Assembly: GCA_900551465.1 (NCBI GenBank)
Contig: URWL01000118.1
Span: forward strand, 1-6,488
Direction: 5' to 3'
Origin: an uncultured Blautia sp.
GTDB lineage: Bacteria > Bacillota > Clostridia > Lachnospirales > Lachnospiraceae
DNA: 6,488 bases
The notes below the pieces were generated by a model. The model saw only the letters and a list, made by a program, of their open reading frames with translations, ran no database searches and was not told the origin of the DNA. The translations under genes and the position numbers were made by a program. Below, piece after piece: positions 2,731 to 6,384 of the stretch (positions within the stretch are counted from its first letter, which is position 1; each line of letters opens with the position of its first letter).

Positions 2731-4215
2731 ATGCCAGTTTTTGACTTTAACCAAACTCCGGAAAAAGGAACGACACCGGAATGCACATATACTACTTTTC
2801 AATCTAATGAAGACAAAGCCACACCGGAAAAACCGATTCTGATCCTGGATAATCAGAAATGCCAGTGGCCCCATCATTCCTGCGGGGTGTTTACCAATCC
2901 TGTCCATCGTACTTCCTTTGAATTTAAAGAGGAAAAGACAGCTGCCAGTGCGGATATCCGAAAGGTGGATTCAAGATTTGTAAGTCTGATCCGCTGGCTG
3001 GGAGAAAACCGGATCAATGTACGGCTTTCAGGAGAAAACAGAACAGAAGGGTACTGTGTTTACGGAATTCGTGAGATTGCCTTTGGAGGAGGAAAAAAAC
3101 TGTCTGCAGAGGATGGTTTTCTTCAATATATGATAGAACGGCTTTTGGCCAGCAGCGCACCGGAAGAGCTTTCGAAAGATGAAGAAGATATAGAAGATGG
3201 AGATGACATGAAGCTTACCAGCATTCAGAGCATAACAGATTTTATGACCTGCGCCGGCCGTACTCTTCCGGATAACATCCGTCTCTGGGCAAGAAGAAAT
3301 CTTGCAGTTGCACGTTCTTCAGAGGTTTCTCAGGAGGAACGGCGCCATGCGCAGCGAGCTCTTTCCATTATGATGAATATCCGGTGGAAAAGTAATTATT
3401 TCGAAGCTATCGATCCGGATGAGGCAAGAAGGATTCTGGATGAAACTCTTTATGGTATGGAAAAAGTAAAGCAGAGGATTATTGAAACCATTATTCAGAT
3501 CAACAGGACTCATACCCTTCCGGCTTATGGACTTCTTCTGGTGGGGCCGGCAGGAACTGGAAAATCTCAGATTGCTTATGCAGTGGCAAAAATACTGAAA
3601 CTGCCCTGGACAACGCTGGACATGAGCTCTATTAATGATCCGGAGCAGCTGACCGGAAGTTCACGTGTTTATGCAAATGCAAAACCAGGTATTATACTGG
3701 AAGCTTTTTCCATGGCAGGAGAGTCAAATCTTGTATTTATTATTAATGAGCTGGATAAGGCGGCTTCAGGAAAGGGCAATGGAAACCCGGCAGATGTTCT
3801 CCTGACACTTTTGGATAATCTGGGCTTTACCGATAACTATATGGAATGTATGGTTCCCACATCCGGAGTCTATCCAATTGCTACGGCTAATGATAAATCT
3901 CAGATCAGTGCACCCCTGATGTCACGTTTTGCTGTTATTGAGATTCCTGATTATACTTTTGAAGAAAAAAAGGTGATCTTTTCCAGATTTGCACTTCCAA
4001 AGGTGCTGAAAAGAATAGGATTAGAAGCTCATGAGTGTATTATAGAAGGAGATGCACTGGACGCTGTGATCCGGAAATATTCAGATACTTCCGGAATACG
4101 TGATCTGGAACAGGCGGCAGAGCATCTGGCAGCCAATGCTCTTTATCAGATTGAGGTGGATCATAGAAAAGAAGTAAGATTTACAAAAGAAGCAGTGAAA
4201 GAGCTTCTCGACTGA
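2731..4215 (+). CDS. Lon-like AAA+ ATPase without protease domain, unknown function
   Basis: A 494-residue protein with a strong ribosome binding site (AGGAGG at 2719-2724, 6 bases before ATG), 30 bases after topB and so surely co-transcribed. Residues about 225-475 match the AAA+ module of Lon: LDETLYGMEKVKQRI, Walker A GPAGTGKS at 272-279, NDPEQLTGSSRVYANAKPG, sensor 1 Asn387 (IATAND), arginine finger Arg399 (LMSRF), and sensor 2 Arg457 in SGIRDLEQ. The Walker B segment reads VFIINELDK, so the Mg-binding Asp of the family's DE is Asn339 while catalytic Glu340 remains. The chain ends where Lon's Ser-Lys protease domain would begin. The N-terminal 220 residues are not Lon's substrate domain as far as I can see. 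They hold a possible metal site (Cys44, His48, His49, Cys51, His59) and an acidic linker at 150-158. It may be a chaperone or remodeller acting with topoisomerase III. The family fold is confident, the role is not. Confidence 0.9.
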   Translation: MPVFDFNQTPEKGTTPECTYTTFQSNEDKATPEKPILILDNQKCQWPHHSCGVFTNPVHRTSFEFKEEKTAASADIRKVDSRFVSLIRWLGENRINVRLSGENRTEGYCVYGIREIAFGGGKKLSAEDGFLQYMIERLLASSAPEELSKDEEDIEDGDDMKLTSIQSITDFMTCAGRTLPDNIRLWARRNLAVARSSEVSQEERRHAQRALSIMMNIRWKSNYFEAIDPDEARRILDETLYGMEKVKQRIIETIIQINRTHTLPAYGLLLVGPAGTGKSQIAYAVAKILKLPWTTLDMSSINDPEQLTGSSRVYANAKPGIILEAFSMAGESNLVFIINELDKAASGKGNGNPADVLLTLLDNLGFTDNYMECMVPTSGVYPIATANDKSQISAPLMSRFAVIEIPDYTFEEKKVIFSRFALPKVLKRIGLEAHECIIEGDALDAVIRKYSDTSGIRDLEQAAEHLAANALYQIEVDHRKEVRFTKEAVKELLD

Positions 4216-4281: not shown

Positions 4282-5859
4282 TTAGTTTTGCTGGTAGACG
4301 CTCAGGAAGTCTGCGATTTCTTCTGACGCCTTGGAAAGAACCTCAATACGAGGAAGATATACAACACGGAAATGATCAGGCTGCTTCCAGTTGAATCCGC
4401 CTCCGTGGATCAGAAGGATTTTTTTCTCACGGAGAAGATCCAGCGCAAACTGCTCATCGTTTGTAATATTGAACTTTTTCGTATCAATTTTAGGGAAGAT
4501 ATAAAAAGCGGCTTTTGGTTTTACTGCCGTGATCCCCGGGATATCTGTAAGGGCTTTATAAATAAATTCTCTTTGCTCGTAAATTCTTCCGCCGGGTATA
4601 ATATAATCATTTACACTCTGATGTCCTCCCAGAGCTGTCTGGACAATGGACTGCGCAGGAACATTGGAGCAGAGACGCATGTTTGACAGCATGTTGATAC
4701 CTTCAATATAATCTTTTACATGGTGTTTGTTTCCGCTTAAGATCATCCAGCCAATACGATAGCCTGCAATCATATGAGATTTAGACAGTCCGCTGAAGGT
4801 AACACAGAAAAGATCTGGGGCAAGAGAGGCGATAGAAATATGTTCCTCGCCATCCATGACCAGACGGTCATAAATTTCATCAGAAAATATAATAAGCTGA
4901 TGACGTCTTGCAATATCTACGATTTTCTGAAGGACTTCTCTTGGATAAAGAGCTCCTGTAGGATTGTTGGGATTGATGATAACAATAGCCTTTGTCTTAT
5001 CAGTGATTTTTTTCTCAATATCATCTATATCCGGGTACCACTCAGACTGCTCATCGCAGATATAATGGACAGCCTTTCCGCCGGCAAGAGTGGCACAGGC
5101 GGTCCAAAGAGGGTAATCCGGAGATGGAATCAGAATTTCATCTCCGTTATCCAGAAGAGCAGACAGGGAAAGATTGATCAGCTCGCTGACTCCATTACCG
5201 GTGTAGATATCTCCGATGGAAACGTTAGGGATATGTTTCAGCTGTGCGTACTGCATGATAGCTTTTCTTGCGGAAAAAAGTCCCTTTGCATCAGAATAGC
5301 CTTCACATTCCGTAAGCTGCTGGCGCATATCATAAATTACTTCATCGGGAGTTCGAAAGCCAAAGGGAGCAGGATTTCCAATGTTCAGCTTTAATACATG
5401 GGTACCTGCTTCTTCCATTCGGGACGCTTCTTCTACAACAGGACCTCTGACATCGTATAAAACATTATCCAGTTTGGATGATTTCTTAAATTCACGCATT
5501 TTTGTTCCTCCCATAAGTTCGATTTGCGGATCTATTTTTTTGGAATCTCTAGTTTGGACAAGTTCAATTTGGAACTCGGATTTTTCCGGCAATGTTTTTT
5601 CAGCGGACATGATTTCTGGTTCAGATTTGGACGTGTCGGTATTTCCTATAAGCCATTCAGGACTTGTGTGAAGAGTTTCTGCAAGAAAGTTCAATATATC
5701 AGGACGGGGAAGGGTTTTACCGCTGACATACTGGCTTACATGGCTTTTTCCAAGCTTTATATGACGGGATTCTGCGGTTCGGACAAGATCTATCTGCTTC
5801 ATATTTTGTTTATTCATTGCAGAACGGAGCCTGTCGGCAAAAATTTCTTTTGAGTTCAT
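4282..5859 (-). CDS. alaA: XRE-family HTH / AlaA-type alanine aminotransferase fusion
   Basis: A 525-residue two-domain protein. Residues about 8-71 are a Cro/CI-type helix-turn-helix (KQIDLVRTAE, then KSHVSQYVSGKTLPR, ending SPEWLIG). Residues 72-120 are a polar linker. Residues 121-525 are a complete fold-type I PLP aminotransferase closely resembling E. coli AlaA (glutamate-pyruvate transaminase): KSSKLDNVLYDVRGP, LNIGNPAPFGF (Gly161), NPNNPTG (Asn299), SDEIYD (Asp327, Tyr330), Schiff-base Lys360 in SGLSK, and substrate Arg498 in DHFR. Subtracting 120 puts these at 41, 179, 240 and 378, the spacing I recall for E. coli AlaA, and gives 405 residues, AlaA's usual length. All catalytic residues are present, so transamination is likely. 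The start is set by AGGAGG at 5865-5870, 5 bases before ATG, and a good promoter. It is not a MocR protein, whose DNA-binding domain is GntR-type. The HTH suggests autoregulation or control of the divergent gene. An internal ribosome binding site may also yield the free enzyme. Confidence 0.95.
   Translation of the reverse strand: MNSKEIFADRLRSAMNKQNMKQIDLVRTAESRHIKLGKSHVSQYVSGKTLPRPDILNFLAETLHTSPEWLIGNTDTSKSEPEIMSAEKTLPEKSEFQIELVQTRDSKKIDPQIELMGGTKMREFKKSSKLDNVLYDVRGPVVEEASRMEEAGTHVLKLNIGNPAPFGFRTPDEVIYDMRQQLTECEGYSDAKGLFSARKAIMQYAQLKHIPNVSIGDIYTGNGVSELINLSLSALLDNGDEILIPSPDYPLWTACATLAGGKAVHYICDEQSEWYPDIDDIEKKITDKTKAIVIINPNNPTGALYPREVLQKIVDIARRHQLIIFSDEIYDRLVMDGEEHISIASLAPDLFCVTFSGLSKSHMIAGYRIGWMILSGNKHHVKDYIEGINMLSNMRLCSNVPAQSIVQTALGGHQSVNDYIIPGGRIYEQREFIYKALTDIPGITAVKPKAAFYIFPKIDTKKFNITNDEQFALDLLREKKILLIHGGGFNWKQPDHFRVVYLPRIEVLSKASEEIADFLSVYQQN
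5497..5512 (-). promoter_or_regulatory. Internal Shine-Dalgarno and ATG at the aminotransferase boundary
   Basis: On the coding strand, GGGAGGAA (5512-5505) is followed by ACAAA and then ATG at 5499-5497, giving a 7-base spacing after GGAGG. This ATG is codon 121 of the fusion, in frame, exactly where stand-alone AlaA proteins begin (MREFKKSSKL). Translation from here would give a 405-residue aminotransferase without the HTH. The Shine-Dalgarno codes for Gly-Gly-Thr-Lys in the fusion. Either it is an active second start or a relic of a once separate alaA gene. Confidence 0.65.
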
Positions 5860-5880
5860 AGATTCCTCCTGAAAAATAGA

Positions 5881-5893
5881 AACTTAAAAAGTT
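5881..5893 (-). promoter_or_regulatory. Inverted repeat downstream of the XRE-alaA promoter
   Basis: AACTT (5881-5885) and AAGTT (5889-5893) form a short perfect dyad with an AAA centre, overlapping one AAGTTCAA copy. It falls roughly 8-20 bases after the predicted transcription start, a place where a bound repressor would block initiation. It is short and AT-rich, so chance is possible. Confidence 0.35.
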
Positions 5894-5907
5894 CAATTTA
5901 TAAAAGG

Positions 5908-5936
5908 AGTATAGCACGAAGAGTTCAAAAGTTCAA
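5908..5936 (-). promoter_or_regulatory. Sigma-A promoter of the XRE-alaA gene
   Basis: On the - strand, TTGAAC (5936-5931) and TATACT (5913-5908) are separated by exactly 17 bases, a close match to TTGACA-N17-TATAAT. Transcription should start near 5901, giving a leader of about 42 bases with AGGAGG at 5870-5865. The -35 box lies inside the tandem AAGTTCAA repeats, so a protein bound there would compete with RNA polymerase. Confidence 0.8.
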
Positions 5937-6066: not shown

Positions 6067-6384
6067 ATGAAGAAAAAAGCAGCAGTCGTTTTATTTACAG
6101 GAGCATTACTTGTGGCATTTAGTACAACAGGAGTCCTGGCAGGCGGTCATGGACATGGCAGAAATCATATGGGAAGAAACTGCAGTTCAGAAAGAAACGT
6201 CTGCATTTATGAGGAACAGGACAGAGTATGTATCTGCGGACAGGACAATGAAAGCAGAGAAGGAAGCTGTGGAGAATGCCCTGGATTTGAAGACGAGGAT
6301 CATGATGGCATTTGTGATCATCATAAGGAAGAAGGATGCCGTCTGACAGGAGGGCAGGGATGCCACAGGAGAAACAGAAGATAG
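6067..6384 (+). CDS. Small secreted Cys/His/Asp-rich protein, putative metal binder
   Basis: A 105-residue protein with a clear N-terminal signal peptide: Lys2-4, a hydrophobic core at about 5-19, and a likely signal peptidase I site after VLA at 23-25. The mature part of about 80 residues holds nine cysteines (39, 46, 55, 57, 68, 71, 83, 91, 99), seven histidines including a GGHGHG start, and DEDHDGICD at 76-84. That last segment fits the spacing of a DxDxDG calcium-binding loop. GGGAG at 6053-6057, 9 bases before ATG, supports the start. Such composition suggests metal binding or a disulfide-rich extracellular peptide. I do not recognise a named family, though small signal-peptide proteins of this kind occur in gut Lachnospiraceae. 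It is divergent from the XRE-alaA gene with a 207-base shared spacer, so that XRE protein could regulate it. The basic tail (HRRNRR) ends the chain. Confidence 0.8.
   Translation: MKKKAAVVLFTGALLVAFSTTGVLAGGHGHGRNHMGRNCSSERNVCIYEEQDRVCICGQDNESREGSCGECPGFEDEDHDGICDHHKEEGCRLTGGQGCHRRNRR

Follow-up and report, generated by a model that had tools for sequence, protein, structure and literature searches.

The window analysed here, the whole 6,488-nucleotide stretch from an uncultured Blautia sp., carries on its minus strand a single open reading frame for a 525-residue protein, in which an XRE-type helix-turn-helix (HTH) domain is joined to an AlaA aminotransferase. The ATG of this frame is preceded by AGGAGG, and the features of the gene and its promoter are collected in Table 1. 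Pfam places HTH_3 at residues 12-70 with 23.5 bits, barely over the cut-off of 23, and Aminotran_1_2 at residues 154-501 with 180.6 bits. The AlphaFold model of the full-length protein is poor for AlaA (mean pLDDT 69, pTM 0.54) and was used solely for the order in the HTH domain and the disorder of the linker. On the plus strand, a gene for a 494-residue AAA+ protein (2731-4215) sits after a topoisomerase III gene (508-2700). The best NCBIfam match of the AAA+ protein is the ATPase part of Lon (profile positions 266-571 of 795), below cut-off, and there is no protease domain among its Pfam matches. Also on the plus strand, positions 6067-6384 encode a small protein of 105 residues that has, by eye, a signal-peptide-like N-terminus and a Cys- and His-rich body; it gave no match in Pfam or NCBIfam.

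Table 1. Features of the fused gene and its promoter in the window
Feature	Position	Strand	Basis
Long product: XRE HTH fused to AlaA aminotransferase, 525 aa	4282..5859	-	ORF, Pfam, 4cvq match
HTH domain, residues 1-73, TP901-1 CI-like	5641..5859	-	Pfam, profile, fold
Third HTH helix, residues 38-46	5722-5748	-	within HTH domain
Linker, residues 74-120, predicted disordered	5500..5640	-	pLDDT <50 for residues 76-118
Internal Shine-Dalgarno sequence GGGAGG, 7 nt ahead of internal ATG	5507..5512	-	sequence
Internal start codon ATG (Met121), aligned to Met1 of E. coli AlaA	5497..5499	-	alignment
Predicted short product: stand-alone AlaA, 405 aa	4282..5499	-	prediction from sequence
Shine-Dalgarno sequence AGGAGG for long product	5865..5870	-	sequence
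TTGAAC box 1, likely -35 hexamer, 17-bp spacer to -10	5931..5936	-	sequence
TTGAAC box 2, within promoter spacer	5923..5928	-	sequence
Likely -10 hexamer TATACT	5908..5913	-	sequence
TTGAAC box 3, immediately 3' of likely transcription start	5891..5896	-	sequence

The best solved relative of the enzyme part is E. coli AlaA (4cvq), a glutamate-pyruvate aminotransferase. Residues 121-524 of the fused protein align to chain residues 27-430 with an E-value of 7.7e-171, and the alignment begins at Met121. The active-site residues named for the E. coli enzyme in PMC4094517 map to the fused protein at an offset of +120 and are all invariant in an alignment of 42 sequences: Tyr15 corresponds to Tyr135, Arg18 to Arg138, Gly19-Pro20 to Gly139-Pro140, Tyr68 to Tyr188, Tyr129 to Tyr249, Tyr210 to Tyr330, Lys240 to Lys360 and Arg378 to Arg498. 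Asp327 and Asn299 are also present and invariant in this alignment. The full-length match includes the PLP lysine, the substrate arginine, the plug and the tyrosine of the partner subunit. In NCBIfam, the alanine aminotransferase equivalog NF006230 is the top match among those listed, with 369.2 bits under a cut-off of 534, and none of the 25 models listed, of 73, attains its own cut-off. The AlaA part is predicted to be an alanine-making enzyme, and the presence of both a DNA-binding domain and retained catalytic residues in the sequence is what a trigger enzyme, an enzyme that regulates genes, would have.

The HTH domain resembles those of phage CI repressors. Among 36 HTH sequences 21 residues are invariant, and a profile of these sequences matched four PDB sequences named CI (E-values of 8.4e-16 to 1.3e-14) as well as two weak, partial ones named BURRH. 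With the AlphaFold model of the HTH domain (pLDDT 93), the top four Foldseek matches are all TP901-1 CI (TM ~0.7); one of the four has an E-value below 0.001, and they include 3zhm, which is complexed with an operator half-site. At 33-35% identity, TP901-1 CI is the nearest solved HTH both by sequence and by fold. The C-terminal class I aminotransferase-like domain (Aminotran_1_2) is one that MocR/GabR regulators also have, but their GntR-type winged helix was not found, the N-terminal domain being HTH_3/XRE by Pfam and CI-like by profile and fold. The sequence-only reading of this DNA had claimed an XRE HTH fused to an AlaA with an intact catalytic set, which is borne out by Pfam, the 4cvq alignment and the invariant residues. 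It had also suggested a regulator-enzyme reached separately from MocR, and this idea is supported. The promoter boxes, the internal Shine-Dalgarno sequence and the own-promoter target described below were absent from that reading.

A database search for the architecture had been suggested together with those claims. Our scan of GTDB genomes with the HTH domain alone found 66 loci, in Lachnospiraceae-type Bacillota and in Bifidobacteriaceae. AlaA follows the HTH domain in 65 of them; in the other one (L064) a contig end falls within the HTH domain. The two parts form one clean open reading frame in 59 of the 65, while three are truncated inside AlaA by a contig end, two have broken AlaA frames (L012 and L016) and L065 has its frame shifted locally where AlaA begins. 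L012 and L016 are Anaerobutyricum hallii and [Ruminococcus] faecis records, and it is in these assemblies that the frame is broken. The 66 loci and 59 clean fused frames rule out an artefact of one assembly or a lost stop codon. In broader terms, it is hardly credible that the fusion is accidental, broken or a sequencing artefact with a non-functional HTH domain: HTH_3 is barely over its Pfam cut-off, as such a reading would have it, but the loci lie in two phyla, the HTH domain keeps its invariant residues, and the promoter boxes occur with the HTH domain and are absent without it.

In a protein search with residues 1-160 as the query, at least 7849 of 7993 candidates were scored and all 120 matches listed span at least 98% of the query stretch; because the query held 40 AlaA residues, the total is not a count of fusions. 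The search with the HTH domain alone, limited to proteins of roughly the same length, returned 67 proteins; 62 of these had no contig above 10 kb, so many are probably fragments. In the family of G001 (Blautia caecimuris), AlaA was found at an E-value of 1e-60 or better in 39 of 150 genomes. The 40 matches comprise 14 fused ones (10 align from the HTH domain and 4 are known from the loci) and 26 that are not fused, 21 of which were fetched. In the family of G010 (Bifidobacterium), AlaA was found in 39 of 101 genomes; 28 align from the HTH domain, 9 lie in open frames of 512-659 residues and 2 in shorter ones. Across the class of G010, 89 of 197 genomes had matches, with identities of at most 58% except for G010 itself.

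In a quick tree of 89 AlaA sequences, with SH-aLRT support only, the 63 fused rows (59 loci, the window and L099, L114 and L115) and two stand-alone genes, L096 and L097, form one clade (98) that is nested among stand-alone Lachnospiraceae genes. Inside it, 13 Bifidobacteriaceae rows form a clade of their own (99). The 26 stand-alone rows include three Actinomycetes outgroups, as well as L117 with just 79 bases upstream; L008, L012, L016, L017, L041, L064 and L065 were excluded from the tree and its counts. The fused and stand-alone labels require three changes on the tree, which by itself does not separate gain from loss. The simplest reading would be one fusion, two losses of the HTH domain and a transfer into Bifidobacteriaceae.

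Upstream of 67 genes (the 66 loci and the window), TTGAAC is the top enriched hexamer, with 199 copies in forward and 49 in reverse orientation over 12,055 bases. The density of forward copies is 16.5 per kb upstream versus 0.23 per kb in the flanks. Of the 67 genes, 65 have one or more forward copies and 56 have at least two, and all 67 have a copy on one strand or the other. Within 200 bp upstream, the box occurs in 63 of 63 fused tree rows versus none of the 26 stand-alone ones; among the latter are L096 and L097, which lie within the fused clade and likewise have no box upstream. From one forward box to the next, the spacing shows its strongest periodicity at 10.5 bp, with a phase near zero (Rayleigh p ~7e-8 with kinship ignored; 114 of 151 distances used, those of 12-70 bp, and 21 periods scanned). 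The likely -35 hexamer is itself a box in 33 of the 67 genes, with a TATA-like -10 at a distance of 16-18 bp. Many genes have a further box in the promoter spacer or beyond the -10, and many relatives have boxes upstream of the -35 as well. TTGAAC is also found in the linkers, overall at 1.39 per kb on each strand versus ~0.24 in the flanks. In the window, an extra box lies inside the linker coding sequence (5562-5567, minus strand) and a one-mismatch copy directly ahead of the internal Shine-Dalgarno sequence; both could bear on the internal start.

The box was counted before the phage half-site was looked up. TP901-1 and phi13 CI have the half-site consensus AGTTCAYR, and a change of TTCA to TTGA weakens binding (PMC8516035). 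TP901-1 OL is AGTTCATGAAACGTGAACT, both half-sites of which are bound by a CI dimer (PMC4941734), and an OR half-site is AGTTCACG (PMC7250872). Since TTGAACTT is the reverse complement of AAGTTCAA, the core AGTTCA is common to the box and the phage half-site; as TTGAAC(TT), it is present on either strand upstream of every one of the 67 genes. The presence of boxes with this core at the gene's own promoter supports the idea that the HTH domain would bind them. The sites of TP901-1 are inverted pairs, whereas the boxes of the fused genes, given the excess of forward over reverse copies, are mostly direct repeats whose spacing varies but is helically phased. TP901-1 CI also has its HTH domain on a flexible linker to an oligomerising domain (PMC4941734), as the fused protein does. 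The fused protein thus shares with the CI proteins of TP901-1 and phi13 a CI-type HTH domain and the half-site core, but its C-terminal part is an enzyme and it sits in chromosomal alaA genes.

The positions of the boxes bear on what binding would do. XRE proteins can act as activators, and the boxes upstream of the -35 in many relatives would suit an HTH domain that activates its own promoter. However, a box that is itself the -35 hexamer, or lies in the spacer or beyond the -10, is in a position suiting repression. We consider activation improbable and repression the better account of the promoter.

The second feature of the gene is the start codon at Met121, with its own Shine-Dalgarno sequence. 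Stand-alone Lachnospiraceae AlaA proteins start at the same codon. When 66 genes were lined up, GGAGG was seen a short way ahead of the ATG in many of them. Of 65 of the 66 loci and the window, 54 genes have a start codon at this site, with a mean Shine-Dalgarno duplex energy of -9.25, versus -2.19 in the 12 genes without it (Mann-Whitney p 8.6e-7). L019 has no internal start codon, yet carries a strong Shine-Dalgarno-like stretch (-10.0). As controls in the window, an equally strong stretch is found at 1.5% of codons and at 1 of 13 other Met codons. Conservation among the 15 codons ahead of the start is limited to -3, a Gly codon in 43 of 63 genes, and -4, a Gly codon in 38 of the 63. Where both are Gly, the pair is spelled GGAGG in 32 of 33 cases; for Gly-Gly within AlaA itself the figure is 60 of 277 (p 3.9e-18, kinship ignored). 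Folding covered 49 of 60 fused rows, and in 42 of these 49 the site is predicted to be more open than control positions. Taken together, the gene very likely yields a plain AlaA from the internal start.

On the tree, 51 of the 63 fused rows have both start codon and Shine-Dalgarno sequence, one has the start only, two have the Shine-Dalgarno sequence only and nine have neither. The internal start, missing in 11 of these 63 genes, and its Shine-Dalgarno sequence require four changes on the tree, and its loss in four lineages indicates that it is not needed everywhere. Tree-aware pair tests had just two starred contrasts each, too few to reach significance. These losses, and the nesting of the fusion in a clade of stand-alone genes whose translation begins at the same codon, would agree with the internal GGAGG-ATG being a useless leftover of the ribosome-binding site of a stand-alone alaA, kept by descent, with only the long protein counting. 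We find this rather unlikely: the linker around the site is not conserved (codons -1, -2 and -5 to -15), whereas the site itself has been retained in two phyla, and Shine-Dalgarno sequence and start codon tend to disappear together. A site maintained for a second product remains our preferred reading.

In the Fusicatenibacter/Lacrimispora-type fused genes L013, L017, L019 and L022, the internal start is lost and forward boxes are few. The mean number of forward boxes is 3.73 in the 52 genes with an internal start versus 1.36 in the 11 without it; as this difference rests on four losses, we make no claim that box number is tied to the start. At an E-value of 1e-60 the fused gene is the sole AlaA in 26 of 28 genomes, several of which are draft assemblies. 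A second AlaA was found in 2 of 11 checked genomes without the internal start versus none of 17 with it, the other 9 of the 11 having no second AlaA at this threshold. The genomes of L019 and L022, both with a lost start, also carry a stand-alone AlaA, and G056, where the start is retained, likewise has a second AlaA. Compensation of a lost start by a paralogue was set aside, given the few cases and the example of G056.

Stand-alone relatives differ in their leaders. Among 17 stand-alone loci, Rfam detected a T-box leader in front of 4, and a search by signature found one at 6 of 26 stand-alone alaA genes (L102, L108, L109, L111, L122 and L124). All six have GCA after GAA in the specifier region, which we take to be an alanine specifier. 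For fused genes, the Rfam scan of 20 loci found no T-box and the signature was found upstream of 0 of 63. The alanine T-box leader is a tRNA-sensing RNA, and in related bacteria it presumably regulates the same enzyme gene as the boxes of the fused genes would. Other RNA elements near fused genes are a glycine riboswitch at L020 (2257-2374, minus strand) and a TwoAYGGAY RNA at L018 (270-436, plus strand).

Genome scans for box arrays suggest that the gene itself is the main target. Two-box arrays gave 29 matches in 12 genomes, 15 at the own promoter and 14 elsewhere, with 15 for the reversed-pattern control. Three-box arrays gave 46 matches in 36 genomes, 38 at the own promoter and 8 elsewhere, with a control of 10. 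These scans would miss single-box or degenerate targets. Because arrays beyond the own promoter are at background in the genomes scanned, the system looks like a local homeostat and not like a MocR-like regulator of many genes. One match elsewhere, in Coprococcus comes (L155, G007:C130), has three TTGAAC boxes at ~1844 on the minus strand, away from alaA. At L129 (G021), TTTGAACCGGTTAAAT-like repeats lie between LacI-family-like and sugar-binding-protein-like genes (families by eye) and were set aside as a probable LacI-type operator. The fused protein could instead control a wider regulon of PLP or amino-acid genes, with its own gene not the main target; its architecture is like that of MocR, which controls other genes (PMC5320631), and G007 does have the three-box site elsewhere. 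In both scans, however, the matches elsewhere are no more numerous than those of the control, and we regard a wider regulon as quite improbable.

Given the TTGAAC boxes at its own promoter and the second Shine-Dalgarno sequence and ATG at the AlaA start, we conclude that the fused gene is probably a self-repressing alanine-synthesis gene, predicted to yield both a repressor-enzyme and a plain enzyme. An AlaA dimer would carry two HTH domains on flexible linkers, which could bridge two helically phased TGAACT/AGTTCA repeats. The bound protein would block the -35 region and, with the -35 hexamer so often itself a box, exclude RNA polymerase. The N-terminal arm of E. coli AlaA makes up the dimer interface and, as a mobile plug, covers the active site (PMC4094517). 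The HTH domain is tethered to the end of this arm in the fused protein, so occupancy by PLP or substrate may alter the possible placement of the two HTH domains, by analogy with the E. coli structure alone. The short form made from the internal start would provide enzyme, and it could pair with long chains to form dimers with one HTH domain that would be weak on DNA. In this way a single gene would act as an alanine homeostat, at the place taken by an alanine T-box leader in some stand-alone alaA relatives. With a little less than even confidence, we propose the complete version of this model: a captured phage-CI-type HTH domain lets the enzyme shut its own promoter, the internal ribosome-binding site gives HTH-free enzyme, mixed dimers set repression by alanine or PLP state, and the module occupies the position of the alanine T-box of some related alaA genes and moved whole, with its operators, from Lachnospiraceae to Bifidobacteriaceae.

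Comparison with known systems places the fused protein beside, rather than within, the MocR family. MocR/GabR regulators combine a GntR winged helix with an aminotransferase-like domain, and direct repeats make up, or form part of, many MocR operators (PMC5320631). The fused protein is like them in having an N-terminal DNA-binding domain on a fold-type-I aminotransferase and direct-repeat sites. It is unlike them in its XRE/CI-type HTH domain, in an AlaA with catalytic residues kept, in boxes that are almost only at its own promoter and in an internal second start. With E. coli AlaA (4cvq) it shares the whole enzyme domain from Met1 and all named active-site residues, but the E. coli gene has neither HTH domain nor boxes. 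The CDD entry PRK13355, 'bifunctional HTH-domain containing protein/aminotransferase', already names this architecture, for bifidobacteria; it is not known to come with a function, an operator or a second start. Given this annotation, we do not claim the architecture itself as new. A literature search, with most subscription journals outside its scope, found nothing for the PRK13355 phrase and no publication on an XRE-AlaA protein.

If our interpretation is correct, the fused gene represents a second evolutionary route to transcription control based on an aminotransferase, one that uses a complete enzyme together with the type of DNA-binding domain and half-site of a phage repressor, in gut genera such as Blautia, Anaerobutyricum, Coprococcus and Bifidobacterium. 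Through the built-in second start, the doses of repressor and enzyme would come from one mRNA, and this compact design could serve as an alanine sensor. An annotation with the long protein alone would miss a likely second product.
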